From the NCBI GenBank assembly GCA_914767715.1, contig OU612067.1, positions 7,936,001 to 8,000,000 of the forward strand: 64,000 nt of DNA, in the 5' to 3' direction. This DNA is from Membranipora membranacea (lineage: Eukaryota; Bryozoa; Gymnolaemata; Cheilostomatida; Membraniporidae). A program made the position numbers and the translations under genes. Under the pieces are notes generated by a model. That model was not told where the DNA came from. It made no database searches and saw only the letters and a program-made list of their open reading frames with translations. This document shows, in pieces, positions 4,067 to 51,623 of this stretch; positions within the stretch are counted from its first letter, which is position 1, and the number at the start of each line of letters is the position of its first letter.

Positions 4067-4909
4067 TTAGATGACATTGACTATGAATGGACTTCCAGGG
4101 ATGTTTTGTGCTCCATACTTCACGACCAGTAGATATTTTCCCTTAGTTTTGACGTTGTATGAGCAGTTATAGACATTGCGGTTATGGTGCTTCACCACCA
4201 TCTCATCTACGGGTGGTGAGCCTGGGGGCCCGGCCATACAGCATGTCAACATGTTCTGACCTACAATGATAAAATTTAAGTTTGGAATTACCAGAAAGAT
4301 TTTTCTATATTGCTTTTCTGTGTATTGGATCTGGCATAATAATGATGAAGCTTGAAACAATCAGAAATATCCGTAGACTTAATAATATTGTTATTATTAT
4401 TAACACAACTGGGTTGACAAAGACAACTTCTTGGGAGTTGTTTGCTCACACAATGTCAGAACACTACTCCCTTAGCTCCAAGCGAATATGTTATAGATTA
4501 TGAAAGGGTGAGTGGTGCTAAAAAAATTTCACAAGTATCTATAGATGATCATGAACGGATCTTGTTGGTTATATACAGTTGATCAAACCTACCTAAGTAT
4601 AACTTATAGAGATTAACAAACATTTATAGTGAGAAAAAAGAGTATAGAGATAAAAATATTACAAAAATAAAGAATTGACAGATTACGGTGTACAAAGGGT
4701 TGACTCATTTCACCTACCTGCTTGTGCAGTATCCACTTGGAACTGTGCAGTTCTACCAGTGAAAGCTTTGTTAAGTCCGAGACCCTTAGAGGTAACCTTT
4801 GTGGCGTCGGAGTTATACTTAGGAAGCATTTTACCATCGTCCTCAGTTTTCCTCTTAGTCTCTACGACACAATGAGCGTGCTCTCTGGAGGAGCTTGGCT
4901 TACCAGAAC
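4067..4909 (-). CDS. FLN: Filamin exons 56-57: hinge 2 and C-terminal dimerisation repeat
   Basis: The exons are 4718-4909 and 4067-4260. Exon 56 encodes hinge 2, about 32 residues ([20 protein letters not shown] and acidic/Lys flanks). It then opens the last repeat ([25 protein letters not shown]), which matches the vertebrate repeat 24 signature SKV--KGLGL-KA. Exon 57 encodes [32 protein letters not shown] and [11 protein letters not shown], then TAA at 4067-4069. In filamins this last repeat self-associates to make the V-shaped dimer. The protein ends two residues after the last strand, as in vertebrates. Confidence 0.96.
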
Positions 4910-19900: not shown

Positions 19901-22900
19901 ATGTGTCCCTGTCTCATGTGGGGTGAAGGATATACCTGTTAAACAGAATCATTTAGAGTAATTATCTTACTACAACAACCTGCTGATCAGATTGCACCTA
20001 TCCATGCCTTAAACGTTTGACAGGCCTATCATTTGAGAGCACCTGCCAAACATCTCAGTCCAGCGACTTCTTTCTTCAAAGAATACCACAAATGCTTTAT
20101 TCAAACAAAAGTGGAGACAACCTTATTATTGTACTTGAAAGCAGCATCATGTTACAAAACTTACCGAGATGTCCGTTAGGTAGTTTCTTTAGTGTACAAG
20201 GTTCGGCTCTGCCGGAGGGTGTGGTGATGTCAGCAGTTAATGTGCTGATGTCATACTCCTTCACAGATAGAGAGAACTCACTAGCTGTACCCATCGAGAA
20301 CTGAGATCGCTCATGGCTCTCACCTAAATATCAATTCAAGTTATAGTCACGGGCATTACACATTCATAAACTAATATTGACTGCATTAATTGCCAAAATT
20401 TAAAATTGACTTCCTCTTTTTAACCTAACATTCCATCTATAGTTGACCTTTAAAACAAAAACAACAGTGACACTGCACCTCAATGTGACATTTTGTGATT
20501 GACAATTTAAGTAATAAGAAAGACAATAGCGCGAACATATCGATAAGTCAAGCGCTTATGAAAGAAAATATAACCTGAGCATGTACATAAATACACAAGG
20601 GTGGATAACTTCTAAAGATCAGCATAGCTCAATTCATCACGCAAGGAAATTTCATGCGAATATCAAGCTAAACTCCCTATTTGTATTTGATAGTAAGTGG
20701 TTGAACGCACATAGTGTGTGTTAGTCATAGATATATAACTTTAGCTGGTGTCATTATAAACCACGTTATTGTTACCCTAGAGGAGTAAGTATTAGCTACA
20801 GTTTAGTTTGGCTAGTTTGATAGTGGCTTAATATTAGCTACCACCAATTTTCACTAGCTATGGTGGGAGTGTAGAAATAATAATTGTTTGTTAGCAAGAA
20901 ATTTCAACTCTTCTGACTTGCACAAGAAGACAAACTTTTCCTCTGGCGATTACTTTACTCCTCTAGTGTACTGAGAATCAAAGATCTGGGCAAACTAGAA
21001 TCTTACCATTGATGTGAACTTTGAATGGACTGCCCACCACATGCTGCCCATCAAACTTGATAAGAACCTCATAATCGCCTTCTATAGGGCAGACGTACTT
21101 AACTCGACAGAGGCCCTTCTTATTATCGTCTGTATCTATATTTACCTTACTCGGTCCCTCTACTGCTAACGATAAACCACCTGGGCAAAACATACATGCA
21201 GTGAGTGACATGCAACATGCTATGTATATATAGTTCAGTTTGTTTTGTTTGTTTGTTTTGTGACCAGGAGGCAGTGCCAATTTGAAAGCTGAGAATTTTT
21301 TTAAGTGTCAAAGTTTAATGCCTAGGGTGACTGTGAATTGAAAGTGGTTTCAGATGCTCAAATCTATCACTTGAAGTAGACATAAATCACACATCAAACA
21401 TAAAAGCACTTGCAAACTCCATGCAACACAACACATATGAAAGAAAAGCGGAGTACATGCCAGCCTTTTTCAAACCTGGCCTTGGCTGCACTTTAACGAG
21501 GAACGGCGATCCGGGGATGTCATGGCCGTTGACCTTGACAGAAGCTCGATACTCGCCGGCGATTCGAGGGACAAATGTGACAGTACAAGTACCGTCATGA
21601 TTGTCAACGCAGCTTATCTCGGCCTTAGAGGGGCCTTCGACAGCCAAACTCAAACCTCCTGTGGTTAATACCGGACAGATTAACAAGGGTTTGTTATATA
21701 ACATGAGGATCGGGAAGTGTTTACAACCAACATTGGAAATATGATGGAGTCACTTTTGTATTGCATATGGCGTGGAAGTTCTAGGGAGTTATGCAATTAT
21801 ATTGATGAATCACAGTGGGAATTTGATGATTACATAAAATGGTGGAGCTGGTGGATAGTTGGAAGATTTGATTGGAAATAAAAGTTAGAACATAAGACAA
21901 GAGAAGTTACCATAAATAGTAAACTCATCTGTATAAATGTCATTATACAATAGTATTTTCAATGCTTTTTGAGTAACAGAGATTAAAGACAAGACCTCAA
22001 CACCGTGTGACATTTCCTTCCTCTTTAGCATTGAGTTCAATCGTAAACAGTTAAATTGAAAAATCTCAACTCAAACAAGGTGTGCCAACAGAAGATAAAA
22101 TACTAGAGAGGTTTAGATATGTATGATATTTGATCAAGTGTGATCCACTTAGGTCGAATCTCAGATTGCTTCCCTTCTATTTGAAAGCTGCAACTTTTTG
22201 CCAGCCATCCAATGGGGCACAACTCCAAATGCAGGCAAATCAGAGTTAACTTGATATACTTCAATTGAGACTGTGACACTTACCAGCTCCAGCATTCTTA
22301 GTATCGATAGTGAAGGAGCACGGCTCTCCAGCTGTACCATAACTCAGTCCTGGTCCATAAGCAGCCACTACACCGCTGTCTACTGCGTCCACATAAAACT
22401 GATATGGGCTTCCTATAAAACATTTTATAGTTTGATGCACAATTTAGATCATTTACATTTACACCCACTAGACACTATTGCTAGTTTTAAAGGAGGGAAC
22501 AATGCTCTTCTGAGCCAATGTATATAAATCATTCTGCCTGTGATTTCCTTTGAAAATAGAGGCACGTTAATGAATGTGAGCTCTTCTTGAATTCCAAAAA
22601 GGGCTTTGACTTGAGATACATATGGATCTAAAATCTAAATCATCACTTATTTGATTTGGAATGAGCCTTGCTTTTAATTGAGGATAATCTGATAACTCGA
22701 AATTCAAACATAACCTAACTTGTTAATGCCACTGATACAGCAGAATTGTTGGTCAATAATGGAAAGTATAGAACGGTTCTGGGAATGCATTAGTATTAAG
22801 GGGGAGATAATTTCAAGGATAAATAGCAGTGTCATAAAAATGCGACACTGATGACAAGAAAAATAAATCAGTGTGAGTTCTTTCAAACAGAGAAATTAAA

Positions 22901-25900
22901 GTGATCAATTATCATTTTGGCACTGAAATGCACTGTTCAGAAGCTTATTTCAAGTAAATTGCGACGGACGATCTCTCTATATTATTGAGATTGCTTCTTC
23001 CCTACTGGCTGTCACATACAACCACACGCCAACAGTAGAGGGACTTTTAAAGTAGGGTGAATGATTGCATTGAAGAAAGAAGGGGATTCTACAAACTACT
23101 GTAAAGCCAGAAATAAAGCTTCCAAATTGACCTTAACCAACAGACAGGTGACTTTTCTGGTTTGGCGTTCGTTGCAGGTTATACAGTACAAGTAAAGAGT
23201 GATGGGGAGACATAGACTGGGCTTTTATTTCTGGATTTACAGTACCTGTGTCTTCAAACCACAATCTAGAGTGGTATGTACCAACTACATGGTATTCAGA
23301 GATACCACCTAGTGGAAATATTACACCACGTTAAGTGAGACATATAAAACAGCTTTCTGCTTAGTTCACCACATGCAACATTACATTTATTATAACATGG
23401 AAGAGTTGAGAGCTTATGATCACGTTTCAATTTCCTAACCATTGTGTTGGCTCTGATTGGTTATGTGAAGTGAAACGACCAATCAGCACCGAGCTGTATG
23501 CATGCACAAATAAGGTGAAGAGAATTTACCTTCGATAGGTTTGTTGTTATACGCCACATGTAGATTATGTAGACCAGTCTCCTGAGGCTGGTATTTTATG
23601 GTCACACTTCCATCACCATTGTCCACTATATCAGGTAGGTGGGTTCTTCCTGATGGAGCAATCACCTTAGCTGTTAAGAAAACCAATAACATATTCAATG
23701 GCTATAGCACACAAATCTTGTGTGAATAAACTAAGTTTTTGATTGTGTACTAAATGATATTTCTTGTCGAACAGACATTATTCAAATAATTAATTGAGCA
23801 AAAGGAACAAAAGGTCAATTTTTTTCAAAATCACTACTTATAACCCTGATAACATTTGGTCTGTGATATGACCACTTTTAAATGGTTGGTATGTAATGAA
23901 GTGAGAGTTTCCTGTTCATTGTGTTGAGTTTATAACACTAACTGCTCACAAACAAACCTGAAGTGTAGTTGAACACAGGTCCAGTAGGTATAACGAAATC
24001 CACAGGGTGGAACATATTGGCAGGTGCTGCTGTTCTGGTGGTCTTATATGAGTCCACTCTGTCTGTGTAATCAGCCTACAGAAGAAAGAAAAAACAACAA
24101 GAGTCAATGACGACAAATCTAAACATTATTTTCACATGCATTCATATGCGATAGGCTTCCATGGTGGCGGTTGAAATAGACATCTATATCATTGAGCTTG
24201 CATGCTTTGAGAAGATAAAAACAGAGGATCTATTTGGCCCATGCAACCATAACCAAAGGGAGAAATCAGATAATTATGTCTGACATTTTTGTAGCCTTCA
24301 AACTTAATTGAAGCCAGACTGAGAGAGCTTTGTTTCCGATATACCTTTTTGATAAGCTAGCCCATGAAGAAGCATGCATCATGGGATTGGTTAAGCATTA
24401 TTTGCTAGTCATTTTTTTAGAAGCAAGCCTGGAAGTGATTCCCTCAATTTGTTATTACCGTCACCTTTTAATAACATTGATGAAAATTATTAAGTTTTAC
24501 CCGATAGAATTCACAATGCTAAAATTAGTAGGATTAAGCACTTTAGAGAAAGGCAGGCTATGTAGACATTGATACAGACCACAGAAAGAAATTAAGTTCA
24601 AGAGAAATACATTCATTCTCATATAACATTCCCAAAATGAGACATAAATAAGTACCCCTTCCCTTTCAGAGAAGTTGAAAAGCTAATGTGCTATATGTAA
24701 AGGACGAGCTGCAAGACAGAGTCTAGCCTGAAAAAAAGCCTGTGCAACAACAAGAAGCAGAAACAAGAATGAGCGAAGGCAGCAGAGGCAGCGATGGTTT
24801 AGTAATTACATCTCTTTGTGCTGATGACGTGTTGGTGATTTTGTAGGTCCTTCGTGTCTCGGTGACCACAGTTCGGCTCTGGGTATCCGTCTGCATATAA
24901 AATATGTACCATTTGATCAAAATATGGTGAAAGTATTGCCTTAAACTAAAGTATATCGCGACTTGGTCAGCAAGAATGAGACGTTGCCATTGGATGACGA
25001 TCATTTGGCAGAAAGTAAACCTATAAACAGGGTTCTGGGATTTGAGCTGCAAAGAGATGTTTTAAGGAAGTGAAGACATGGACAGAACAGTGTTTAATAG
25101 GACAGACTTGGAAGGTGGACAATTCATGCAATTGTATATTTGTAACTTTATAGATATAAATAAACAACGACATGACATGAGATAGGACAAATGCTGTTTG
25201 CCATTACCACAGTCATGCTTGTGCTAAAAAGACAGCGAGATTCAAGAATATCTTGCAGCCCATGAAGAAAGCATGCCCCGCATTATGGATCTTGTCTTTC
25301 AGTTCAATTCATTGACAAGTCAGTGACATCTTGCAAACAGAATTTTCATTGGTTTTAGCTGTCAGCCAACGCCAGTTTAGCATAATATGAATGTAAACTC
25401 TTCTGGTGTTGCTACCCATCATCACAACAGTCACAGATTCGCAAAACTTGCACCTAACTAACATTTATAGCCCTCAGCAGATGGTCCCATTTCACAATCA
25501 AATGGTTCCATTCTAGCAGCAATCAATACTGATGTATCACAAGTTGTATTGACCATACTCAACATGCTATCACATCTTCTAACAAAAGTAGATCTATCCT
25601 AGCTAGCCGAGCCATGCTAGTAGAAAACTGCCTACCTCCTGTTGGTTATAAGGCTGCTGCTGATAGGGCTGTTGTTGCGGCTGCTGCTGACTTGTATATG
25701 AAGTAACAGTGGTATGAGTCTGCTGCTGACTCTGTGGTGACATGGGAGACCGTGCCTATTGTTATGTGAATGACACAAGAGAAATGAGTACTCAGAGTCA
25801 AATACAACAGAAGTGATTGAGAAATCCATCCAGCTTAATACTAACCATGCAGTTTTTCAAGACGGTATCGTGTTGACGTTTGCCATCAGGGATCCAACTA

Positions 25901-28900
25901 AACCCACTAAAACAATTCCTGACACATCTGAAAGTCTTTTCACTCACTCCCTCCCTCCAAACTTCAATATTTTCTTCAAACTGTTTGTCCTGATACAACA
26001 ACAATCATAACCCAAGCATAAGAATTGACAAACACCAACAAGTCGGGAAAATGGCCTGGTAAAACATTTGAAATATATACATATATACATGAAACAATCG
26101 AAGTAGCATCCAAACGACAACATAAAATGAATAGAGTTGAGTATGTGCAGACAAATCAAAAAGAATTTGGTGATTTATTAGTAGACGATGAGAGACATGA
26201 TACAGTACGATTGTTTGCTATTGACAGGACATAGTTAGACTTCAGTGATGACTGAATACAGAAGATCACAGTAGTCAGGCCATGCTAGTTTGGAGCATGG
26301 CTGCCTACCTCTGGCTGACGATAAGGTTGCTGTTGTGGTAGACGACTTGAATATGAAGTTGTGGTGGTGCTGGTTTGCGGCCGCCTCTGTGGTGACATTT
26401 GAGTCCTTGGCTATTGTTACAGAAGGGACACATATAACAATCAATATATTATATAAAAAATAATGCACAACAATATCGGATATGGAGCCAAGTGGCTGCC
26501 AGTGTTCAATCTTGGCAATGATTCAGCAAGCAGCAACACAGAATTTTCACTCTCCATTAAGCAATAAACCTAACCGCTCTTCCTGGCAAACGACAGTCAG
26601 TGGAGTCAGGTACCATCAAGATCATAAAACCAATCGACAACTCGAACACATCCGCAGTCCTTCCGAAAATAGATAAGAAACTATTCAAACTCTTCAAAGA
26701 CAGAAATTGACACATCAAAGTAAAAAACCTGTGACATTCTGTGCCCTCAGACCTTGATGCAGCTGTGAACCCAATAATAACAATATTCAGAGAAAATTCT
26801 TCGAATGAAGGCTGACTAAGCTACAGATAGAGTGGGTTAGAGCTAGAATGTATGCACACATATCAAACATTGTTTGATGATTAGTTGACAAAACAATCTA
26901 GTGTAAGTTTGATACTGATACCCAAAAACAACATTGCTGAGGTGAAGACAGGAGGAGGTCAGAGAATAGGTCTGGGATCTCTCAACGACCCCTTTAAAGG
27001 ATCATGAGGTCTTGACGTACAATACAAAATGCAAACATTAGACGCTTGCACTTTTACCTCTGAGTCATCTATGAACTCTGAACCATATGGCTGGTTTCTA
27101 CTGTCTGATATAACTGTGGCTTGCATCGAGCCTCTTGGAGTCCTGGAGTGGTCTGAAACAACTGTAGCTTGGATCGAACCTCTTGGAGTCCTGGACTGGT
27201 TTTGAGTGACCATCATCAAGGGAGCCTAAATTAACATGAGAAACCATGAGATGTGGTTATGAATACTCGTCTTAAGAAAACTCCGTTGACATAGATATGT
27301 CACGTAGACATAACCTGAAAGGATCTCATAATATGAGATTGTCACCAATCCTCTTTCCTCTGTTGTAAAACATGCTTCGCGTTAGGATTATATCAGGGTG
27401 CGATATTTGGACAGATGCTGACAGTTCTGTTGGGATAATACAAGGCTCTAACCATCAAAATATTTTTTAGGTTAGAAAGACCCTGGCACATATGGCGTGT
27501 CATACTTATACAGGCATTTGCTTGGGACAAAGATATGCATCATGTCCAACGAGAAGTGCTTCCATCTACAACATACAACTGTAATTTGCGCATTCACCAA
27601 ACATCACAACATTATTACCTCCGTGTCTAAGCTTGGCCTCTTCATGAGACTTTCCAGATAACCAGCCGGGTAAGGTCCCTGAATGGAGCCTCTAGATTGC
27701 CGTGTAGGCTGTTTACTGGCAGTCACCAACCTTTCCTCCTAAATTATCAGTGATATTGTAGTAAGTTTGTTGGAGCCATCAAACAGGAAAATAAATCTTT
27801 TTTGTGGAACATCACAAAATCATCAGTCAACTCGTTGAAATGATAAAACTCATCTCAGCGCAATGTGTGTTGGTAATCTTGATATTTACCTCCAAGTCAA
27901 CATCCGCTCTAAATCTAGGATCTTTGGGGTACTGACTGCTATCAGTTGAGAAGTCAGCTTGAATCAATCCCTTATCTCTAGGATATTGGGAGCTATCGGT
28001 AGAAACATCTCCCTGAACCGATTTTCTGGGCTGATTTCTCGAAGCATACTGTTCTTCCTGTTATGCGAAATTGGGATACATTCAGTTGCAGCAATAAGCT
28101 GTTTTACTCATTGGTCAGGTATACTGGACATGCTATACATTCATCTTTTCGTGGATTTCAAACAGGACACAGATCTCCGAGACACAAACACCATCCAAAT
28201 ATTTTGTCATCATCATCGGCGATCGGATGTACAAGCTGGTAAATATGATGCTGAGTTAATTAACTTGGGACAAGACGGAATTAGAGTGTGAGACAGAACT
28301 GGTGTAAGTGTGCTTTCCTCAAGCAATAGTTAAAACACTGTCAATCATACCCAAAACCTGACGAATAAATCAAACTATGTCTAGGACTTTCCATTCAGTA
28401 CCATCAAATATTTAACAAAGAAGATATCCATATATGCGCACCAATAGGCCAACTCGTTATGAGATAATCAGGTAAGGACTCTCATGTTCTGGGAGACAAG
28501 AAATGGGACACAGAATGTGGCTGTAGGAGAAACATGCTCATGACTTGAGAAATCAGAGGCAGAACATAAAACTAGAGAAGATAACAAGGCCATAAACAAT
28601 ATAATTGTTATGCATGATGTTGGGTGCGGATTCCAGACTTCAAGTGCGCCAAACTTAAGATGTGCTTATCCATATTCCTCATGCTGTCGACATATACCTC
28701 ATACTGGCTCGAAGCTGGTTGGCCGTGACTTTCATCAGTATATTGACTGATGCTAGTTGGGATTTTGGTTCCAGGAACCTGTCCCTGCCCCGCACTTGGT
28801 GAATTCCTCAACAACTGGTTTTCCTAATCAAGAAAATTCCGACTACATCATAACAATTGACGTTCCACAATTGACAAGAAAACAACTAAGACATAGGGAA

Positions 28901-31900
28901 AGGATGTGACATCATACAAATTTTAGTTTCAATATATTTTGTGCTTGTATATTAGTTTCAGGGTCTCATATCATTGTGTATCAACGTGGGTTTACCTCAA
29001 CGTTGACATTAGCCCTGAGTCGAGGATCTTGATTGGGATAGCGACTGCTATCAGTTGAAACATCAGCGTGGATGGAGGGTCTAGGCTGATCTTTCTTGAC
29101 CGCTGATTCCTGGATCACAAAGATGGAAAGTCTTTTCATCCTTGTAGCGTTGATTAAAATGTTAAGTTCAAAACATGAGAGACTCATTCAGCTCGTTCAC
29201 ATTTCACAAGTCTTGACAACCTAGGAGTCGTTTGCAGAGCACTCTATGGAAATATTAACTGACAAAGATACTGAAAGGCTTAACTACGAAAAACTTGATC
29301 AACCATCAAAACAGTTGTCCATCATGGATGCTGTTGTCATCAACAGAAGAGTTAGTAAGTAGACTGAGAACATAAGACAGAGTGATCAGTAGAACATATC
29401 GCATGCCAGACCGACTTAGTTTACCTCTAGATTGACATTGGCCCTCAGCTTACGATCCTGGGGGTACAGACTACTGTCTGTTGATACAGTAGCTTGAGGT
29501 ACCAGACCAAGTGATTGCCTTGGCTGATCATAAGGTCTTGAAGATATCTAGTGAAGAGGTATATATATGAGAAACGATGTAAGTTCAACCCCGATGTTAA
29601 AATCCAAGAAATTTCTGAGAACCGCATTTGATAAAAGCAAAGTGTCATTGTAATAGCGTTCAACCAGATTCACTAGTTTCAGGAAAGCAAATCATGTTTT
29701 CACAATAACATCGTTTTTCCTGAAGATTTTGAGACCGCAATGGACAAAGAAATATTACTTGATAACGCAAAGCTTCAATAATCGGAAGAAAGATGACTTT
29801 GTAATGTGCGACATAACGTTGTCATGCATGAGCGGATAATTACCTCTGAATCACCATAGGGGTGCTGTGATGAGTACTGGTTTGATGATACAGTGCTCTG
29901 TATATGAGGCTGTATGGGCGAGCCTATTGGCTGATTACCATAGGGTTGCTGACCATAAGGTTGTTGGCCCATGGGTTGCTGACCCATTGGTTGCTGCCCC
30001 ATTGGTTGCTGCCCCATTGGTTGCTGCCCCATTGGTTGCTGCCCTTTTGGTACTGCCTATGTATTCCAGGCAACAAATAAAATTAACAAATATGTGTGGG
30101 TGAAAATATAAAACGTATAAAGCGGGTAGACTATAATAAAGTGCAAAAGCAGTGGGGGAATCTACAGAAAATCAAGGTGATAAACTAGACATCTAATTAC
30201 GGGTATGTTGAGGTGCAAACTATACTAGGGTGAAAGTATAGGGAATTGGTAACACATTGTGGTCTGTTGTCAGATGGTGAAATTAAGATTCATCGTCAGT
30301 CCTCTGCTAACTTCTAAAATGAATGTTGAAGGGCAATATGGGATAAAAGTTTCTTTATTTAAGTGAAACAACTGCTGGGTGAATGGCCATGCTATCGTGA
30401 AGTGAACACCAACTCACCTCAACTATAAACTGTCCCCCTGGGATCTCCACTCCGCCAAACTTGATGTTCATATCATAGTTTCCTGTAATAAAAATGAATC
30501 ATGTGACATCAAGCAGGGCAAGAAGTCTTTACATCTAGAGGTGCTATCCACCCATGCATCTGCAAATGACGGCTGGCAAATTAAAAGCCATATGAAGGTT
30601 GATGAACAGAGATGGATTAAGATTTTTTAATGTTGCTGGTACTTCTGGGAAAGTCGGTTTTGCAATGACGCTTTTGGGCTTTTTTCACAACCTGGACTAA
30701 GCAAAAGTCTAGGTTGTGTTAAATTTACCCTCCAGATGTGTTAAAATGTTAAATTTACCCTCCAGATTGGGTTGACTCCAGAGACTTACCGGGGTGTCTG
30801 GGAGTGTAGTAGATTGACACTGTGCCGTCATTATTATCTTCTATCTCGATTTCAGTAGGCTGACCATTAGGTGATTTCATGCGTGCGGTCACATTTCCTG
30901 GGCCAGCCAGTGATTTATCTACATTGATGACACATTCCTCGTCCACCACAACGCGCTTCTTAGCATCTTTAAATAAATTCAGATAAATATTGTCTCATTT
31001 CTGGTAAACAAGAGGAAACGTTGCTGTATTGGTTCTAACTCAAAGATTACCAAATCATAGGAACTTGCACCCTTACAATCACCAGAGCAGAATAAGAAAT
31101 TTCCTTCTTCATTACCCAATGTGACATTCATAAATGGGAGTGTCATAGCCTATTCATTTTCCGCATGTGAATCGGGTTTGCTGAATAAAGGTTAGCCGCA
31201 CAAAATAAGTATGTTGCCAAGCCCTAAATAAATCTGTTGCTGATCCTAAAAGACATACGTTGCCAAGTCCGAATGATATTTCAGAAAACTTACCGTTGAT
31301 GTGGCAGTTGTTGGCGTTGCCTGAGGGTCTGGTATGAACAGCGAAGGGAGAGCCGGGTACGGGGTTACCCCCGTATTTGACCTTGGGTTGATATACTCCG
31401 CATTCATCAGGAGTGTAAGACACTGTCACTGTCGCGTCACGGTTATCAGTTATGTTTGGTCTGAGGAAAGTACCATCAGGTGCCTACAAAAATAAAACAG
31501 CATGTAGAAATTCAGAGTAATGTCAAATGTGCAAAGCAACCAAATGGTATGCAAAAATAGGCTATAGTGGCATAAAGAAGTATGGGGTAGAAATACAGTG
31601 TAAGCTGGATAATTCAAACATTATAATTCAAAATTCCTGTTAATTCAGACAAGGAAAATTGGTCCCTTCAACCAGATCTCAGTGGATTTTTATGTCACAT
31701 AATTCAAACTCTGCTTAAATAGAACAAATTTTTGTGGTCCCCAGAGGTTTGAATTAAGTGAACCGCACTGTAACAAGAAGTTACAACACAATGAAATACA
31801 TTAAACATTATTTTTTAGTATATCAATTTTATATACTAAATAGTAACGCATTTTCACCAAGTTTTTATCATCCCATGCTCTTTTATCTGGTCGGTAGGGA

Positions 31901-34900
31901 ACAAACTTCAAATTATACTAAGATTTTAAGAGTTAGTGGTGGCAAAATACTAAGTATTCTGTACCTGTACAGCAATATCTAGGTCAGCGTCTCCGGCATC
32001 AGAAGTATCTACTAGGAAAGCTGTAGGTAGAGATGCTGGTATACCATTCTCTACACCTGGTCCTGATACAAGGACCTTAGAAGCATCAAATACTGGTAAT
32101 ATCTTCTGCTTCACAGGGCTGTAAACAGTGAATCAATATGTCTCAAGGCTATCATATCCCAGTTAGATGCGTTGAAAAAGTAAACTTCAACAATGGCGTT
32201 TTCATGCAATTTTGAGTAGCTTACTTGAATCATGACACCAGATAAAGTGTATGCAATATCATGCTACTGTTTGAGCTCACTGCTTAATCCGAACTAAACA
32301 TCATTGAGTGGACAGGTTTGAATCCCCGGAAACTTCAGCTGCCACTAAAGGAAGTTATATATTCAAGTTGCCTTTACGTATTCATTATTTGTATACTTCC
32401 AAGCCAACCTCTATAAATTAATAAATAGCGATCTGGCATCAAATATGTATGTACAGAGTTTCTGTTCTCTGTTACACTTACCTGCCAGGTATAGGCTGGT
32501 TAGCATATTTGACATCAATATTACAAAGACCCTCCTCTGCTGGATAGTAAGTACACTGATAAACTCCAGGCTGTACCTCATGTGTTTCTGCGGGGCGCTT
32601 ATGTCCACGCCCGTCATCGTATGTTACCTAATAATATCACAGACTAGAAGTTGATGTCGGAAATTTAAAACAAAGACTTACATGCAACAGGTAGTTTGAG
32701 CCTTTCAGAAATACATGGCTGCATAGAAAAATACTGTTCAGGAGTCATTCTCTATTTTGTTAAGGGTAGATAACTAGCTGCATTGATCTGGCAAGTCATA
32801 TGATCGCTTATACACAAACGAATCCAAATAAAGTATTAAGAAGTGAATAGTTTTGTTGGAAAAAATGCTTACATCAAGAGGAGCTTTTCCAGCCTGAGTA
32901 CAGTCCACAGTGAACGTTGCAGGTAAAGTAGCTCTTACACCTTCTGGATTCAATCCTGGGCCGTACATACGACACTTAGATGGGTCTACCTTGTCTTCAA
33001 TAGGTACTTTGAAGGGTGATCCTGAAAGATAGAAATTAATATTATAAAATGTTGGAGAAATGTCCTTAAAATCTACATTATTGTCAAGGTAGCTAGAAGT
33101 GTGTAGGCTCTCTAAGAAGAAAATCTATTTTGACTTTCTGGCTTTCCTTGTGTGGCTTTAAAGATTTTCCCCAAAACAATTCGCTGTATAAGGTTGTGAG
33201 TAGACAATATCCATTCTTTTTTAGTAGAACAGCTGAAATGACTACTTTTTCAAGTCGGAATGGTATCACCAATAACACATACACAATGATACAGTGATAT
33301 ACTTTGCAAACCCTCACCAGGTATATTCTTATCAGCAAACTTGACAGATATATCATAGTCTCCCTCCTTAGTGGGGAGATAATCCACAGTACAAGTACCG
33401 TCATGATTATCCTTACATGTCACCTCAGCCTTACTTGGGCCTGTAGGGAAGAACGTAGTCATGGTAACCATTTAAACATGTTTTTTTTTAAACTTTATAT
33501 ATGCAACTAAGTCATTAAATACATGTTCGAACGGTGCCCAAAAAGATTAAAAATAAAGAATATCAGATCAAATATAGAAAGTATCCGGCACTGCATGTTT
33601 AAAAGATTCTGGTTGGACAATTCTTGAATGTGATTTAGAACTTGTCAACATTGCTGGCAACAGTCAGTACTTCAGGGAAGATGTTTTCATCAATGATAGT
33701 ACTTGATTAGTGCAAATTAGTAGTATCGATATTTTGTCGACTCTTACCCTCAACGGCCAGAGACAGACTGCCCTGTCCGGCACCTTTAGTCTCTATGGTG
33801 AACTGTTGAGGTTGGTTAGTGTGACCTCCCTCCAGTCCGGGACCATAAGCCTTCACTCTGCTAGGGTCATTACCAGGTGATACATTCACCCCAAAGGGAC
33901 TCTGAGGTATGGGTAAATTCTCATAAGTAACGTCTATCTTACATGGTCCTGGAATAGTGACAGCATACCAGTTTAAAATACTGAATACGAGTAAGATGGT
34001 ACTTTAGAGTTTAGCAGCATCTTTACAAATCAGACTACTGCAGGAAAAGTGAATCAATGATTAAAATCCTGAACACAGATATTTGTGCAAGTGCAGTGTG
34101 CTCAGATTCTCAGAGCAATATCATGATTTCGTTCTCATTTGGAAGAGCTTTCTGTGTACGTAACGAAAAAATTGTGGAAAAAAAAAAAACCATATCAAAA
34201 CTGCATTCTGGGTAATCTCTAACATACCTGCTGCATTAGGAGCGTAGGAGACAGAGTAAGTACCATCTCCGTTAGGTGTGACAGCTGTGTCATACTTATT
34301 ACCAGAGGGATCACTGAGTATCGCTCTCACTTTACCAGCACATGTCGGGGTGATGGACCGAGCGTCAACTGTGAAGTCAGTGGTAGAATCCAAGAAAACT
34401 CCTATAGTGAGATAGAAACAATATGATTAGGATATCACAAAATAATTAGTTTGATAGTTTTAAGTTGTTAAGCCATGCAGGAGAGGGAGGTAAGTAACCA
34501 AAAAATCACATTTAGGGATTAAGTTTCAAGATTAGGTAAATGAGTACTGGTACTGTTGGTGGTGATGTTATAGTTTTGGGGTGATTGACATAAAGACAAT
34601 GTAAAAAAAAAGACATTCTAGATCAACAAGGATCATGCTGTAATAGCCTGGATGATATTAGCATGCCACGGTGACATTGATTAAAAGAAAGAAAAATAAT
34701 AACAAATCATCAATGATGGAAAGAACCAGTACTGACAAACACTTTAATATAGCTGACACCTGAATGATTCACTCTGATAACTCTGAAGTTACGACCACGG
34801 CATTGGTCATGTTCAGTGAGAATAATGCAGGCGAGAAGAACACTTGTTCATGCACACGCTAGAAAGACATTGCAGTTATCCTGTTGGTAAGTCATACAGA

Positions 34901-37900
34901 CATGATTCATGCAGTGTCACACCCGTCAGTCCAGCGTGCAGTGACTCGTTACATCAGCATGCAGTATCTCACATATCACACCAGGACAGGACTGAGTCGT
35001 ACCATGAGGTTCAAGTCCTGGACCGTAAGCAGTTACACCGCTTACATCGATCACCACACCTGGCTGTATCTTAGCCACATATGGTACACCAGGTATCGGC
35101 TCGTTACAGTAGAAGATATTGATGTTATAGTCTCCCGCCTCTGTAGGGTAGTAAGTCACCTGGCATGTACCATCACCCTTATCTCTAGCTTCCATCTTAG
35201 CTTCGATCGGTCCCTCGATAGTTAGACCGAGGGCTCCTGGTCCGGCCTCTCGTGTATCGATTGTGAACTCAGCAGGTTTAGTTGTGATTCCTCTATATAG
35301 ACCATCTCCGTAGGCCTTGACCTTCCCAGCATTAGCTCCAGGTGGTGGGGCTTGTTGAGGAGCCTGGTTTGTTGCCCTGGTCTTCGGTGCAACCTTAGGA
35401 GCCTCAATTGGTTTCTCCTGCACTGGCGCGTAGGCGTTAGTACTGAATGGGCTGTTGGGTATTTCTACACCTCCACAGATAACATTCACCTGATGAGGCC
35501 CCTCTTCTCGTGGTATGAAGGTAACATTATGACCTTGTGGTGTTTCCTCAACCATTGGTAAAACAGTACGACCGCTTGGTGATCTGACATTGACAGATAC
35601 AGGTGCTTTGCCTGCTGCATGGTTGTCAACTTGAAACTCAGTAGGGATGTTCAGAGGGATATCTGGTTAGGGAAGGTATTAATGAGAAGAATGTGAGAAA
35701 CTCAAATCAAAACAAAATGGTGGAGATTGCGCCATCGGATAAACTTATCTAGGGGGTCAAACTTTGGTTAGCGTAGCGTAGGTCAGTTCTAGAGAAAAAG
35801 AAATGGGTAGTGGAATGGGAATCTTCTGGAATATTGTATTAAAAAAAGAATTACAATTATGTCATTCAGTAGAGGATGGTGGGAAGAGTGATGGGACCAC
35901 ATAAAAAAACTGCAAAAGGAACAACTCAACTTTGATTCAAGGCCTCAATGATAGCACGCTCTTAATTGATAATTGGAACTTAGACAGTTGAGCAGATATA
36001 GTGTGGTACTTACTTGGTTCCAGACCATTAACCCTAATTTTGCTGACATCAATGTTTGGTTCTATGTTGACCTTGTAAGGACTAGTTGGGATCTCCTGAT
36101 CAGCAAACAGAACGTTAGCAGTGTACCATCCCACAGACTTGGGCTCATACTCAATCCTGTAAACATGAATAAAACGAAATTAATCTCAAGGAGAATGGAA
36201 GATTAAGATTTGTCTGGTGGCAATAACAATGACACATGAAACAGCACTGTTGTATCACCTGAATAACTTGCCTTCTTTTAAAAATCTTAGAACAGCCGGG
36301 TAAACATGAACTGCTAGCAGCCACCATCAAACTCAGCAAGATCACGCAGTGATTATAATTAGACATAAAACGGAATATTTTTATTGACACGTCTTAAATG
36401 CATATGCTTCTAATGCTTCCAAACTTAGCAATAACAACCAGTATATGACAATAAGCTGTGATAATAGGCTGACCTGAACAAGCCTTCTCCATTATCAGCA
36501 GCGTTAACAGGTACATCCAGTCCTCTCTCATCACATAGTGAGATAGCCACATCCCCAGGGCCAGCCTCAGAGCAATCAACAAAGAAGTGAGTGGGCTGGA
36601 ACGTCTTAACAGGACCCTCAATACCAGGTCCGTATACCTTAACATTCTCAGGCTTGCTAGGCTCCTCAACATACACCTGATGAGAGGAAAACACATTGCA
36701 TAGCTAAACTATTGAATAACATACACAGCTTTCTCATCAGGGAGTTTGTGAATATTTTGAGTACTATTTTTATCCAGAGCACATGTGATCCATTTTGTTT
36801 TCACAAGGTAATATCCCATCTGATGATAATAAACTAAACTAATCTAAACAATAAGAGTTGTCTGCTAAATAAAAACAGGGGACATAACTATTGATATTAT
36901 CATATAATACCTTACCCTGTATGGGCTGTTAGGAGTGTTTACACCACCATATGATATGATGATTGTGTGTTTGATGGCCTTTTTAGGTAGATACTGACAG
37001 CTGAATGTACCATCTCTGTTATCTCGAACCTGGATATCAACCTGGCGTCCTGAAAATATTAATCACATAGCATTGAACAGCACCCATTTTTATACATACA
37101 TACATATCATACATAGCAGGGCAACAGTGTGCTATCCATAGAGAAAACAATGTGTTATTCAACAAAACCTGATATCGGTTCAGGTAAACGGTGGATATTA
37201 TGATTGTGACTATACACCAAGAACGATCAAGCCAAACTGGCCAATCCAGAACTATCAGATTCACTATTATGGTTGGGATGGGGTTGGGCTCTGTTAATTT
37301 CTTACCTTCTACATCTTCACAGTAGACCTTGAGAGGGGCGAGTCCAGCAGCTCTTGTATCCACAGTAAACTGTGCCCACTTATTCATTACATTACCAGTA
37401 GCCTCCAGACCAGGTCCAAAAGCTGTGACCTACAAGTGTAGATGAAACAAAACATGTCAAGGGATGGATTCCCTTGATTTCATCCAATTGTATCAATATT
37501 TTGGTTATAGATAATTGGCCAGCAGTAGAGGCACTACTGGTAAACTATTGAATAAATACAGCATTTATAATTATCACTGATGACTTGCTAGGTAAACATC
37601 AGTTTAACGACAACAAGGGCAAACTAAAAACTATAAACTTTGTCTGCAAGTTGACCTCAAACAGTGACATCGCTTCTTTTCCACTTTCATTGACGACCAA
37701 GTATTTGAAGAGAAAATCCTTGCGTTGGCGAAAGCTTGAAGTGAAAATCATTCTGAGTAAACATCAAACATCTTACTCACACTACAGATGACAGATGAAA
37801 ATATCTATTTCAGAATAATCACCTGTGCAGGGTTGAATTCTCTTGTAGCTGGCCCTATCTGAGCCATGAAAGGTGACTGAGGTATATCCTCGTTATCACA

Positions 37901-43900: not shown

Positions 43901-46900
43901 TATTGATTCAAACAAGTTAGGAGTATTGGGGCTTGCAAGAATTTATATAAACACCCATCAACAGGTAAAACTGTGAAACAGCCTGGTATGGAAGACTTTA
44001 TATTACATGAATAATGAGTGTATGTTGTTCTAATTGATACTGAGTGATGAACTAGCGAACATTACTCTTTAGCTCTCTAGGTTGATTATACCAAACTAAT
44101 CCACCAAGCATCGGAGATTAATTGATTTCAGATAAGTTCATTGTATCTTTGTTTAACTGGAGGTATACATATAAATGTTGCAAGTTTTACTGTAGCATAC
44201 CTGAGGTACATCCAGCCATTTCTCAGCTAGATCCATGGCCTCTGTGGCATTTCTCTTAGCCTGCTGAGGATCCCAGTCAGTCCAGTCAGGGCACAGACCT
44301 GATAAACGTTAACAAAAATTTATTGAAAAAAACATAATAAAGAAAATACATTCTGAAATTGCCTTACTACAGGTAATAAAAACTGACTTCACTCAGAGGC
44401 ACAGAAACCAATTTTAGTGTACAAAATCTGTAGATCAGGAATAAATGGGGGAACTTTGACTACTTGTTTGATGAGCAGCTATTGTGTATGATCACCAATT
44501 GGAATAGGCATGTGGCTATGACCTTTTCCATATCAAACATTTGCCTGTGGATAGAGACAAAAACAGCTTGCAGTGGCAACACTATCTTACCTGGACCGAC
44601 AGCGTCCACGAGAGCTCCGATGGCTTTACCATCGTTCCAGTCAGTGGTGAAGTTCTTGATGGGCAGTTCTGGTACCTTATTCTGTACCCACAGAAGCAGT
44701 CTCTGCTTAGGGGTTGGCCCCTCTCTAGCGCCTGAATATAAATCATTCCCAGGTTTTACATGGCTGTCAAACTCCTTAATTTGCAGGAGTAATCAGCAAA
44801 CGGTCATCATGATAGATAGACATCGGAAGTAGCACACACTGTGATGGTACACAGTACATGGCACATGGTACATGGTACACGTAACCTTCCTTCATTCAGT
44901 TTTCCAATTCATATATCACTCTTTGTAGGTATCAGTTAAACTGAACTATTATTACGACTTTTTTGTATAATTATGGGATGGTCATGACCAAAACTTAGTG
45001 ATGCTGTAGAGCATCAATAAATAAATAAATGCAACAAAGTAAAAACTGTTTTACTTAATTCCTAGCAATTCGATTTTTCTGAAATTCAAGAATACTGCAT
45101 TGTGGGATATATAATGACTTACCTGAGTAATCATCCTCCCCTTCCCACAGAGGCATAGATATAGAGTAATGTAGAATCAATGTCCATATCAGACCCAAGA
45201 TTAACTTAATTCTGCTGTCTATGATATCTGTACTGTCTGTTAATAAATAAGAATTATGATTAGCGAGCAGTGCCAAAAAAAAGGTGGTTCTTTTAGGTTC
45301 AGCTGCATAGGTGTCTGAAGAGTTGAGTTTGATGAGATCACTAGCGAATAGCAAATGCACACACAGCAAAAGTTTGTATCCATAAGTTTTCCATCCCTGC
45401 GCTAACCTCTAATTTTGAAAAATAAATGTATCTGCCAAAGAGGAATAATTCTGGCCATGTGGTGTCTAAAAATAAGATTTTTGAGAGATTCTTACCAATA
45501 TTGACGAGTTTGATTCCTTCTTCATCTTCTAGAAATCTCAGAGTATTTGTGACATTCTCTAGTTTCTGAGAGCGAAAGTTTGGTCTTCGGTTGACACGAC
45601 GGAATTTTTTGCCAGAGAGGCATTCGATCAGAGCGATAAGGTTCAGACCATCAGAGAGGTCATACTCGATGTCAGATACCACCTAGAAAATTGAGGTTAT
45701 AAACATGAGGCAATGAGATAATTTCTATAAGATAGGATAAGATAAGCTCTATAACGTCAAAAGCAAAAGTAATGATGACTACTGAAAGTGCATAAATACT
45801 CTACTATATTTTTACTGTTACCCTTTGAATTACAAAGTTATTAGTACGGGAAGTGGTCAACATTTTTTTAAATGATATGATGGAAGGATTAATAGCGCTG
45901 ATCTTCAATTGATTGAGTGCATGATATTTGATTATCACAGAATTTGATATGATGGATTGATTGATTGTATTTCCAACAGTGTTTACAACTGAAGTTGTTT
46001 TGTTATCATATATAACTGGGACCATACAAAATGTACTAATACAACATTATAAAAACAGACCAAACAATTCTGAGATAATCAGTGTATGGTCCACTTGATT
46101 CAGACTCTTTAATTCAGCACTGCTGCTATTCAGACACTGCATACTAATGCCACTAAACTCGAGTTTCATTATTCCTGAGACGTTCGAATTGAGTGGAGCA
46201 AACTGTGTGAGTAAAAACTGCATCATGCGACACTGTAAACACATCCCCCTCCCATATTCCCAACAAAACTAGCCCACAAACCTTCTGAGCGGGTTTGAGA
46301 TGCTCGTTACACCATCTGGAGAAGGTGTTCTTCTGTATCATCTTCCATGGTGCGTCCGCAGCTAGCTCTCGCTCTGCGGCTAACTCCTCCTCATCAGAGT
46401 ACCACTCCTCTCCCTCGTAATCATAATCATCCTCATACATGGCTCCTCCTCCGTGCTCCTCGGACTCGCCGTTACGCCTGCGCTCCTCCTGCTGCTTGAA
46501 AGGCCAGCGATTCCTGGTGAGAGGGAAAAGACATATTATGGTTCTAGTTCACAACAGGAAAAGACTCACAAGGAGCTTATTTCGAACAAGTTTATGTTGA
46601 CTGAAGGTGCCATTCAAAGGGCGGACAAAACTGTGATCACCCAATGGCTCTTGTTTGGCCATTTGAGAACTCAGTCGTAATGTATCGGTAACATATGACC
46701 ATATTAATTCTTCCGAATTTGGACTAAGAGGAGGTAAACACATAGTCTCTTTCCTTGTAGTACACTGTTTAGCAGATAAAATTACTGGTTCATAAAAACA
46801 AAGGCTCTCAGACCACTGGGGCTCAGCATATATATATTATATACATCAATCTGCTACTGGCAAAAAACGTAATTCCGATGCCTAATTAATTGCATGAAAA

Positions 46901-49900
46901 CAGGTACATGAGTTAGCAATGCACTCGGCGTGCCCCAAGTCAAAATAATGCTCCACAAATTAGGCAACAGCATAAAACAGGCACGAGCATAATCCAATAA
47001 GGCTGAACTAGATATCCTAGGCCAGAAACAAGAATGAAATAACGATATACCCATTGGTAATGGTACAAAACACTACCTTAATCCAGACAGTTGACGCGGC
47101 ATTTACGCAGAAAAAACCTCTTCCAATTCAGATAAAACACCTCTTAGTTTATACTGGTAAATCCACAAGCTTTCTATTATCCAGGCTGAATTATTATCAC
47201 TGCCAACTGGTGACAGGCTCGAGGTAAAGTGACAGCAAAGCGAGATGACATGAAGTCAAAGTGCCCCTTGTTCATATTCATTCTCATTAGCGCTATGACT
47301 GATTTACTGAGTCACAGAGTACTTTCACCAACCGACTCTCACCAAATTATAGGAATCACAGTCAGAAGCGGAACAGTGTCAATTATTATGCGCATAACAA
47401 TATCCTAGTCTCCTGTCTTTGTGGGGTGAGGGATTATCCTGTGAAAGTTTGGAGCTTGTATGACACAGGCTATTAACTACTGATCAATTATGGATTCATA
47501 TCAATCAGACAGTCTGCAGGAAATGAGCGCAGTGAGATGAGATCCCACATGATGGAAACAATCAGACAAATATACCCTATAGGAGTAAAATAGCCACAGG
47601 AAGAAGGTTGTGCATTTTGCACAGGCTCAAAATTGAGAAATTTATGGCTTGCTAATGATTACACAACCTCATTACATTTTGTGAACATCTACCAGTAGCT
47701 CCTGACACTTTGGGCTAGCCACTATTAACTCACCCCAAAACTAGCCAAACTAAATTGAAGCTGATGTTTACTCCTCTAAGGTAGATAGACTTTTACTAGA
47801 CAATAAATAATTGAACGGAGGTGTAACATCTGTGATTGAACCTCGCTCTTCAACAAAAACACCGGCTTTCCAAATTTCAGCAAGGTCATTCAAACTGCCC
47901 CAAATTTTTAATATCACAAATTTGCGCAAAAGGTATGAAGTCACACACTTATGTGAGGGGATAAGATATAGCTCAAGCTATGCTTTTTTTAATGTGGGTC
48001 GTGGGGATTTGCATCGAAAAACAGTCCCACCATCATCGACAGTCTGCCAATTTTAATGCAGACCCAAAACCGTTGTGCTTCGCCGCACTGTAAGAGGAGG
48101 CGAATAATGAGCTTGTACGAGGGAATTCCAGAATAGTCGCACAGATCTTTTCCAACGAGTCAAAAATTAATCAATGTAGGCGATGAATTTCAAATTATTG
48201 GACCTCCGAACACCAATGCAACAGAAAACAAGAACAATGGGACAGGTTCACAACTGATGACTGGAATTAAGGGGTACTAAGGAATCAAACACTGTAAATA
48301 ATGAAGAACTGCATAGAGTAGTGAGCATGTGCACACAGGATCAAATAAATGTGATAGACATGACATAGTGGGGGGACCTAAATGTCAATCATCATCACTT
48401 CAATCTTCATATTTCTTATGTCTTCCCGTCCCCTGAGGCAAATAACAACTCTCATACTCAAAAAGCAAATGCGAAATAATACAACATCCTGTTCTTCGGG
48501 GTTGTGAATATTCATTCCGATGACAAACCGATGTAACTTACTTCGAAATCTGTCTCAAGGTTTAATAATCCACTTAGTGACCGGTAGTTTAATCCTCCAG
48601 TAAATAAAAGTACACTGTTTCCTAAAAGTCAGCGTAATCCAGTGCGGCAGCGAATATCCGATACAACACCGCTGCTAACTAGTATACGACGGGGTAGGTA
48701 GCTATTAATTCTCGCTTACCTGCACGGCTAAACGTATACTCTACCTATATCTAACCCTTATTATTATTTAGATAGCATATGAAAGGTCCGAACGATGATC
48801 AACAGCATAAAGTTAGATTCAAGGCACATTTAAGTTTATTATTCGCAGCAGTGAAGCAATACAGAACTATAGGATGTAGAAAAAGCAATTAGCTAATTGC
48901 CTTCCAAATTTGGGCACCGGTTGAAACAAGATAGCTGTTGGTTATTTGGTACATTTTCTATTTATCTGTCTAATCGCTGACAGCAGTGAGCGGCAGCACC
49001 CTATTGTGACCTTTAACCCTCATTAATCTCACAGATCTTACTGCCTACAACCTTTTGATAATGAGATCGAGGAGCAATTATAGAGCATACCAGAACACTG
49101 TTAAATTAATGAGCTTGCAACACAAATACAGTTTTACTCATCAGATAAGACAAGAAAAACATTAGCAGATAAAGGTTAAGATGATCAGGTCTTTAACAAA
49201 GCAAATAAGGCACTCACATCCTTTGCTGATGTTAATGGTGACAGAAGCCCAATGACTCAGCAAGCAACGTCACACTGTTACAGTTATATCAGGAGGCAAT
49301 CTTAGATCAGCTATTGAAATCACGACAGCTATCTAACTATAGTAACAAACTGATCTTACAACTCAGAATCACAATTTGGCAATAGTAAACATTATGCTAG
49401 TGAGATAGTTGCACTATAATTTTCACTTTAGATTAACACTGGCTAAGAAAGTGCTGAACAAAAACTTCTACTAATAGGCTTTAGTAATAAAGCTACTGTT
49501 CAATGAGATGTGATGTTAGTTGCAGGAATCTGAAAATTGAGGCATTGTGACAATTTGATTTAACATCTTAAGAGTTGCCTTCCCTAAATCAAACATGTAT
49601 AAAATAGGTCTTACAAAATTGCAAATAATCCTGATTTACCGAAAGAACTAGTTTCTATATAATTCCAACTATAAGCGTCAGAGTTGTTAGCATACAGCCA
49701 TGAGACAAAGACAATAATTGCAGTAGTCGCAAATGGTCGTATACAACTACAAGAATATCTAGAATGAATTTAATTGTAAATGTTACTTGCTTACGAATAA
49801 TGTGAAGTCAAGGACTGAACATCATCCCACAGGTAGAAGTACATAGTGCGCACAACTTTGTTGTACAATTAGAGACAACCCTTCGTAATAAAATGATCTT

Positions 49901-50075: not shown

Positions 50076-50076
50076 A

Positions 50077-50103
50077 TTAGTTGGCAAGACGGATGACGGC
50101 CAT
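50077..50103 (-). CDS. Upstream ORF of filamin, eight codons
   Basis: On the minus strand an ATG at 50101-50103 opens MAVIRLAN and stops with TAA at 50077-50079. One base separates this stop from the filamin start codon at 50073-50075. If the 5' UTR extends this far, ribosomes would meet this start first and terminate right next to the main ATG, a geometry that can favour reinitiation or dampen translation. Whether the transcript includes it is unknown. Confidence 0.4.
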   Translation of the reverse strand: MAVIRLAN

Positions 50104-51572: not shown

Positions 51573-51623
51573 ACCGGTTTTGACGTCCGTCTGAGGATCA
51601 CCATACCACTCGATTACTATCCC
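51573..51623 (-). promoter_or_regulatory. Strong splice donor in the 3' UTR of the CCDC177-like gene
   Basis: On the minus strand, 49 nt after the TAG stop, the sequence reads AACCG/GTAAGT, a consensus donor. It could splice a 3' UTR intron, or be the donor of a non-coding first exon of filamin, whose start codon is 1.5 kb downstream. No partner acceptor is certain; TATAG/TAATC just before the filamin upstream ORF is one candidate. Confidence 0.35.

Follow-up and report, generated by a model that had tools for sequence, protein, structure and literature searches.

A ten-exon hinge 1 array in a bryozoan-like filamin gene and GCATG words in its introns

Filamin cross-links actin and helps to set the stiffness and reach of the network. 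In vertebrate filamins, hinge 1, a flexible, calpain-cleavable linker between repeats 15 and 16, is followed by nine repeats (16-24) and is encoded by a single exon (FLNB exon 30, FLNC exon 32) that is known to be skipped without changing the rest of the protein. RBFOX sites downstream of an exon usually enhance, but those downstream of human FLNB exon 30 repress. FLNB exon 30 is reported to be regulated by RBFOX1 and QKI, which bind in the intron beside it (PMC6103745); hinge 1 of FLNC and FLNB is removed in myogenesis, and FLNC exon 32 is missing from the main muscle form (PMC7216277).

In the filamin of amphioxus (Branchiostoma), hinge 1 likewise consists of several optional segments in the NCBI annotations, with 12 combinations of 13 to 728 residues among 20 annotated proteins (three sources), and the filamin of the nemertean Lineus longissimus has a hinge either with a large low-complexity insert (X3, 422 residues) or without it (X7, 41 residues). 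The minus strand of the 64,000-nt window analyzed here carries a filamin gene with a hinge 1 of ten exons and 445 residues; this linker, too, lies between the equivalents of repeats 15 and 16 and could be skipped without changing the rest of the protein, although skipping is known for the single vertebrate exon and is predicted for the exons described here. The amphioxus and Lineus inserts occupy the same hinge point as this array but differ from it in sequence: one of the amphioxus segments is long and coiled-coil-like, and the Lineus insert starts E/Q/L/R-rich and looks unrelated to the cassettes. The original prediction, which attributed the choice of hinge cassettes to "this lineage", was accordingly too narrow.

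The filamin core and the hinge 1 exons

In the phylogenetic tree, the gene joins the filamin of Watersipora subatra (Bryozoa) with support of 100/100; this protein, the closest of 212, is collinear with the gene along its length and 70% identical over 651 post-hinge residues, and by sequence the gene is that of a bryozoan-like filamin. An initial assignment to molluscs gave way to Bryozoa once the Watersipora protein entered the comparison. The core (44 assembled exons, hinge exons excluded) is open over 2210 codons and encodes an N-terminal actin-binding domain of two CH domains (PF00307, two stretches, E = 8e-40 and 9e-38 in two Pfam runs) and a long rod of filamin repeats (PF00630), with 11 stretches N-terminal and nine C-terminal to the hinge and a stop codon immediately after the last repeat. 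Because nine repeats follow, the vertebrate number, the hinge takes the position of vertebrate hinge 1. For the equivalent of repeat 17, the second after the hinge, the best single matched stretch was human filamin 2k7p (129 bits, query residues 1-99), which we take to span repeats 16-17; with the same query, 2j3s ranked above it only through the sum of three shorter stretches. PMC7216277 assigns 2K7P to R16. Judging by homology, the protein would dimerize via its last repeat and cross-link actin. An N-terminal extension upstream of 46440, part of an early gene model, was dismissed because only 35-37 residues precede the CH1 motif in ten related filamins; exons upstream of filamin matched no Pfam family above the cut-off.

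Spliced alignment to Watersipora filamin, without splice-site scores, set 35 of the 43 core junctions; the alignment of 40138 to 38933 was not convincing, and none was obtained for two others. Of the remaining junctions, two were placed by eye and six carried over from earlier gene models, one of which used a donor model favoring G at +5, and the main tests were repeated on the 35 splice-score-free junctions as a control.

Table 1. Features of the filamin gene in the window. GCATG positions are counted from the start (+) or end (-) of the intron.
Feature	Coordinates	Strand	Length (nt)	Details
First coding exon	46282..46440	-		holds the start codon and the first part of CH1; aligns with residues 1-56 of Watersipora filamin; CH domains by Pfam
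Candidate cassette exon	35003..35662	-	660	symmetric, phase 1/1; two filamin repeats (Pfam Filamin, 2 stretches) and Pro-rich linker
Intron after 660-nt exon	34402..35002	-	601	six GCATG: +41, +91, +150, +337, +365, +525
R15 equivalent, last exon before hinge 1	30418..30482	-		phase 1 in, 0 out; GAG/GTGAGT; GCATG +26 in downstream intron; Pfam Filamin on R15
E1	29844..30056	-	213	71 aa; GQQPM microrepeats; GCATG +17 downstream
E2	29425..29547	-	123	41 aa; STDSS-YP family; GCATG +19 downstream
E3	28996..29109	-	114	38 aa; STDSS-YP family
E4	28698..28823	-	126	42 aa; GCATG +14 downstream
E5	27890..28057	-	168	56 aa; STDSS-YP family, internal duplication
E6	27619..27738	-	120	40 aa
E7	27058..27225	-	168	56 aa; internal 48-bp tandem duplication
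E8	26309..26410	-	102	34 aa; GCATG +24 downstream
E9	25636..25755	-	120	40 aa; E8 paralogue; GCATG +19 and +69 downstream
E10	24810..24890	-	81	27 aa; ends GAT/GTAATT
R16 equivalent, first exon after hinge 1	23958..24075	-		phase 0 in, 1 out; includes a minimal hinge of 24 residues; end resembles Watersipora hinge end
Exon A	21476..21658	-		second half of repeat 17 equivalent
A-to-B intron	21181..21475	-	295	five GCATG: +16, +52 after A; -40, -33, -19 before B
Exon B	21007..21180	-		duplicate of exon A, second half of repeat 17; candidate mutually exclusive exon
Last coding exon	4070..4260	-		end of repeat 24 equivalent; stop TAA 4069-4067

The array itself (30056 to 24810; Table 1) consists of ten consecutive open exons bounded by AG and GT, in phase 0 at both ends, which together comprise 1335 nt or 445 codons and are flanked by the exons in which one filamin repeat ends and the next begins. 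Nine exons end in GAG/GT and E10 in GAT/GT. In gene, place, exon number, frame, donor ends and the length of about 445 residues, the original prediction proved exact. Direct splicing of R15 to R16 would yield an ordinary hinge and the open 2210-aa frame, and all ten exons can be skipped without frame loss. A simple filter found no further hidden cassettes in the hinge introns.

What is unusual is the run of eleven phase-0 introns at the hinge (29 of the 43 core junctions are phase 1), the signal in these introns described below, and the hinge length of 445 residues, compared to 23-57 in 27 of 28 related proteins among the matches listed; P0133 and P0127 (Trichoplax) were dropped from this count, the former because its anchors fell on the wrong repeat and the latter because they were weak, and the cnidarian, amphioxus and vertebrate rows stand outside it. 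The 445 residues, flanked by filamin repeats, have no Pfam match, as expected of the non-repeat linker of hinge 1, and may be disordered, judging by composition: the mean hydropathy of 0.358 is below the charge-hydropathy boundary of 0.414, and Q, S, P and T account for 48% of the residues.

The duplicated cassettes are old and constrained at the protein level, with ps of 0.69-0.80 and pn of 0.20-0.29 in pairwise comparisons of E2, E3 and E5, and ps of 0.60 and pn of 0.24 for E8/E9. Similarity between duplicates fades within about ten bases beyond the exon ends, and blastn of 31000-20001 against itself (E 0.05) gave only exon-centered matches and one 38-bp intron match that lacks GCATG. The case for E6 and E7 as duplicates is weak (12 of 39 residues, ps 0.84, pn 0.46) and was abandoned. 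At E 0.001, E2-E7 had no match among 1158 candidate proteins (those of about 1420-4525 aa that share exact 5-residue words). The Watersipora isoform on the list, X2, which represents five clustered sequences, has a hinge of 33 residues, and neither result supports conservation of the array.

Frame-neutrality had been offered as the reason to regard the exons as cassettes chosen by splicing. We rejected it as proof: 20 of the 42 internal core exons are symmetric, including nine consecutive ones shortly after the hinge, and tandem exon duplication forces symmetry, so that frame-neutrality alone is unremarkable. The 2^10 combinations that would keep the frame are a ceiling only. Support for the choice of cassettes itself comes from the constraint on the duplicates, the annotated isoforms of other animals and the intron signals.

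GCATG words and splice donors

GCATG occurs 18 times in the 5007 nt of the 11 hinge introns, compared to 26 times in 24288 nt of 36 other filamin introns (Poisson P = 1.4e-5) or in 26010 nt of the wider set of 39 introns (P = 5e-6); depending on the introns included, the trimming and how overlaps are counted, the core introns contain 25 to 27 copies. A GCATG starting at +7 to +40 after the donor is present in 6 of the 11 hinge introns, beginning at +14 to +26, vs 1 of 39 core introns (Fisher P = 1.8e-4); the respective values are 5/10 vs 1/36 without the R15 donor (P = 1e-3) and 6/11 vs 1/34 against introns with splice-score-free junctions (P = 3.5e-4). GCATG ranks first among the 5-mers of this donor-proximal zone and third, after ATGTC and TGTCC, in the whole hinge introns. 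Shuffled hinge introns contain 0.41 donor-proximal copies on average, and none of 2000 dinucleotide shuffles reached six, whereas core introns match the shuffle expectation (25 vs 24.1 overall, 1 vs 1.1 donor-proximal). Thus, the RBFOX core word GCAUG exceeds the background near the candidate regulated exons, as it does in RBFOX-regulated exons. The full hexamer UGCAUG is weakly enriched (6 in hinge introns vs 12; P = 0.04, trimmed P = 0.07), and the donor-proximal six comprise four AGCAUG, one GGCAUG and one UGCAUG.

UCUU also is enriched in the hinge introns (P = 0.008, trimmed), and words of MBNL, NOVA and ESRP show no enrichment there. Unlike the intron that flanks FLNB exon 30, where QKI is bound besides RBFOX1 (PMC6103745), the hinge introns are not enriched in the QKI word ACUAAY (5 in 5007 nt, P = 0.13). 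The donors themselves differ from those of the core in that G at +5 is found in 2 of 10 cassette donors vs 37 of 43 core donors (Fisher P = 1.2e-4), or 30 of 35 in the splice-score-free set (P = 2e-4). Neither the U1 pairing energy of the cassette donors (P = 0.08) nor the acceptors (pyrimidine content, P = 0.18; base at -3, P = 0.08) are significantly weaker overall.

Two further candidate alternative exons

The same word recurs in two introns outside the set that revealed it. The 660-nt exon upstream of the hinge is missing from the listed Watersipora isoform, X2, the sequence of which fits a direct splice from 36014 to 34401; the intron after this exon contains 6 GCATG in 601 nt vs 0.64 expected (P = 6e-5). 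The second site is in repeat 17, where the tandem exons A and B, in the same phase, share 28 of 56 residues (ps 0.81, pn 0.40) and fill the same half of the domain, as mutually exclusive pairs do. Either exon alone completes the repeat, and R16-R17 built with exon B scores as Filamin repeats in Pfam; A and B together leave a half repeat, with the frame kept. These two exons are candidates for mutually exclusive use. The A-to-B intron contains 5 GCATG in 295 nt vs 0.32 expected (P = 2e-5). In Watersipora X2, repeat 17 is slightly nearer to exon A than to exon B (scores 167 and 157).

In the two GCATG-rich introns, of the five at these sites, the word is the top 5-mer (P = 2e-7); the other three are poor in it: 0 in 351 nt before the 660-nt exon, 0 in 625 nt before A and 1 in 683 nt after B. 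The word is biased toward the sense strand in the hinge introns (18:7), the A-to-B intron (5:0) and the intron after the 660-nt exon (6:2). Exon A has a GCATG site downstream and exon B has a GCATG cluster upstream.

Alternative readings and a possible splicing program

We consider it probable that hinge 1 has grown into a cassette array and that a GCAUG-binding factor of the RBFOX type governs the alternative splicing of at least some of its members. Were all ten exons constitutive, the locus would encode merely a long disordered hinge 1, with introns left over from exon duplication. The open exons, the usable splice sites and the constraint on the duplicates as protein fit this reading, the gene has many symmetric exons elsewhere and U1 pairing is not significantly weaker; however, the loss of G at +5, the donor-proximal GCATG and the variation of hinge-1 inserts among annotated isoforms of amphioxus and a nemertean argue against it, and it appears quite unlikely. 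The exons could also belong to a separate nested gene that is not joined to filamin repeats, a reading for which the lack of a Pfam match over 445 residues speaks. Given that the exons lie on the same strand, that their phases fit R15 and R16 exactly and that inserts occupy the same point of filamin in amphioxus and Lineus, this is hardly credible.

The GCATG excess could reflect base composition, duplication or dispersed repeats and have no role as a splicing signal. The paralogues E8 and E9 do share ACTAGCATGGC, and the enrichment extends to ATGTC and UCUU while being weak for the full hexamer. Against this explanation, which we regard as unlikely, stand the dinucleotide shuffles, the strand bias, the self-comparison with its single GCATG-free intron match, the five introns that remain when E8/E9 are counted once, and the two further introns with GCATG. 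Harder to weigh is a narrower form of the preferred explanation, not exclusive of it, in which only the exons followed by a donor-proximal GCATG (E1, E2, E4, E8 and E9) are optional, or in which the whole array is switched as one unit; few combinations would then arise. The confinement of the donor-proximal word to these exons and the R15 donor and the single large insert that distinguishes the Lineus pair favor this form, whereas the 12 amphioxus combinations and the donors of E3, E5, E6, E7 and E10, which also are without G at +5, speak for broader use; the balance is close, tilting slightly against restriction.

Under the preferred explanation, that of a GCAUG-regulated cassette array, hinge 1, once a linker of about 24-33 residues, would have reached 445 residues through the gain and tandem duplication of phase-0 exons. 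An RBFOX-type factor, the presumed reader of GCATG, may act just downstream of the cassette donors, in either regulatory direction, such that at least some cassettes would be alternatively spliced and cells would, therefore, produce filamins that differ in hinge length and in linear motifs. Mechanically, added cassettes might lengthen the cross-link and make it more compliant, or they might offer a site to proteins that bind the hinge and proteins that cleave it, and it is plausible that they tune the reach and compliance of filamin. More tentatively, and with some doubt, a single GCAUG-reading program could jointly switch three parts of bryozoan filamin, namely the two-repeat insert in rod 1, hinge 1 with its ten cassettes and the latter half of repeat 17. 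Because the same factor controls human FLNB hinge 1, control of hinge length by RBFOX may be a means of setting cross-linker mechanics that animals inherited from a common ancestor, or else a striking convergence.

If this explanation is correct, a ten-step hinge with its length chosen by splicing would supply a natural range of linker lengths within one protein, in which the relationship between hinge length and network mechanics could be tested directly. An RBFOX word common to the hinge 1 of the bryozoan-like filamin and of human FLNB would point to an old link between regulator and target or to repeated invention.

The filamin gene and its hinge 1

The 44-exon core model of the filamin gene, that is, its exons without those of the hinge, has a reading frame open through 2210 codons, in which Pfam identifies two CH domains and filamin repeats, 11 upstream and 9 downstream of the hinge. 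Spliced alignment to Watersipora filamin, with splice-site scores unused, picked 35 of the 43 core junctions; the remaining eight were taken from other gene-model steps. Two protein searches (best 120 of 1768 and best 120 of 2377 matches) yielded 212 distinct homologues, and among these the protein of Watersipora subatra (Bryozoa) is the closest (69.8% identity over 651 post-hinge residues, with none of the remaining 211 listed exceeding 61.9%). The two are grouped with support 100/100 in a 25-row tree and, judged by these sequence comparisons, the gene is bryozoan-like. Upstream on the same strand (47000-63900) lie open, low-complexity exon candidates, basic and coiled-coil-like, which probably represent another gene, not filamin; six pieces of them gave no Pfam family over the cut-off.

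Features of the filamin locus (window positions)
Feature	Position	Strand	Basis or content
Filamin gene	46440 to 4067	minus	Core model and Pfam
Hinge-1 exons E1-E10	30056 to 24810	minus	Phase 0 at both ends
660-nt symmetric exon	35662-35003	minus	Two filamin repeats with a Pro/Ala/Gln-rich linker between them
Exon A, second half of repeat 17	21658-21476	minus	Duplicate of B
Exon B, second half of repeat 17	21180-21007	minus	Duplicate of A, 28/56 residues identical

The original prediction of ten phase-0 exons between the equivalents of vertebrate repeats 15 and 16 (R15, R16) proved exact in coordinates, phase and count. Jointly these cassettes encode a Q-, S-, P- and T-rich stretch of 445 residues in which Pfam finds no family; splicing directly across all ten gives a 24-residue hinge, near the 33 residues of Watersipora. 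Among 28 related proteins drawn from the best listed matches of both searches (25 named lophotrochozoans and three unnamed, some being isoforms of a single species), hinge 1 comprises 23-57 residues in 27, the sole exception being Lineus X3 with 422. A hinge insert distinguishes Lineus X3 from X7, and hinge-1 segments are combined in 12 ways across 20 annotated Branchiostoma filamins from three sources, giving hinges between 13 and 728 residues long; in both genera the isoforms are those named in NCBI annotation. A long coiled-coil-like segment is present within hinge 1 in six of the 20 amphioxus proteins (P0018, P0020, P0021, P0027, P0033 and P0052; hinge 618-728 residues). In vertebrate FLNC, hinge 1 is reported to be removed by splicing during myogenesis (PMC7216277). 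The open-access literature searched yielded no report of invertebrate filamin hinge-1 cassette arrays or of bryozoan filamin splicing.

Origin of the cassettes

Two families, E2/E3/E5 and E8/E9, are recognizable among the cassettes, and E7 holds an internal duplication. Pairwise, E2, E3 and E5 have changed at 0.69-0.80 of synonymous sites and only 0.20-0.29 of replacement sites (0.60 and 0.24 for E8 and E9), and similarity becomes undetectable beyond about ten bases past the exon ends; hence the related cassettes look like old coding duplicates retained as protein. A protein search with E2-E7, in which 1158 candidates were scored, gave no match at E 0.001. Frame neutrality, which had been taken as ground for alternative splicing, is insufficient as an argument: 20 of the 42 internal core exons are likewise symmetric, with a run of nine beginning one exon past the hinge, and 29 of the 43 core junctions are in phase 1. 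Tandem duplication itself yields runs of symmetric exons.

Splice sites and intron words

G occupies donor position +5 in 2/10 cassettes versus 37/43 core junctions (30/35 for those chosen without splice-site scores); overall U1 pairing energy differs weakly (P 0.08). In human FLNB, hinge 1 is encoded by exon 30, and RBFOX1 and QKI are reported to bind and regulate this exon (PMC6103745); the words of both factors were counted in introns after this literature match, with four comparison words added. The RBFOX core word GCATG is 3.4 times as dense in the 11 hinge introns (R15 through E1-E10 to R16) as in 36 other filamin introns; the full hexamer TGCATG is weakly enriched (P 0.04; trimmed, 0.07), and enrichment of the QKI word ACTAAY over the same 36 introns is not significant. 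Within +7 to +40 of the donor, GCATG occurs in 6/11 hinge introns (after R15 at +26, E1 +17, E2 +19, E4 +14, E8 +24, E9 +19) versus 1/39 core introns, or 1/34 in the stricter set; it is the top 5-mer of this zone, matched by none of 2000 dinucleotide shuffles, and third in whole hinge introns. The introns after the paralogues E8 and E9 (26308-26280 and 25635-25610, minus strand) have little in common besides GTAGGCAG and ACTAGCATGGC; it looks as though nothing but the splice site and GCATG had been retained.

Five further introns were kept out of both sets because they adjoin exons already judged optional-looking, namely A/B and the 660-nt exon, the latter not in the listed Watersipora isoform. 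The A-to-B intron carries 5 GCATG in 295 nt and that after the 660-nt exon 6 in 601 nt, GCATG being the top 5-mer in the two; the other three have 0, 1 and 0.

A different word, ATGTC, is strongly enriched, ranking top in hinge introns and second both in pooled introns and in the A-to-B and post-660-nt-exon introns. It is sense-biased (26 sense versus 4 antisense, 13 introns) and overlaps GCATG in only two copies.

Exons A and B and the proposed splicing choice

Either A or B finishes repeat 17 behind the shared first half, and A plus B would leave a half repeat; they are candidate mutually exclusive exons (21658-21007). Compared with the second half of repeat 17 in the 212 listed homologues, B outscores A in none, and the Watersipora scores are close (A 167, B 157). 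In the intervening intron A is followed by GCATG at +16, and B is preceded by copies at -40, -33 and -19. An upstream RBFOX site usually represses an exon. A downstream site, by the usual rule, enhances it (PMC6103745), so that with the factor present both placements would favour A over B. The cleft that strands C and D form in filamin repeats is described as the binding place of many partners (PMC7216277); in our reading the swap would replace those strands in repeat 17.

It is quite probable that the hinge array is alternatively spliced at all, and a role of GCAUG/RBFOX in this splicing appears fairly likely. An RBFOX-type GCAUG-binding factor would select among the cassettes and could act in either direction, since downstream sites usually enhance whereas those at FLNB exon 30 are reported to repress (PMC6103745). 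Such selection would produce filamins of differing hinge length, and this choice may alter the reach and stiffness of filamin.
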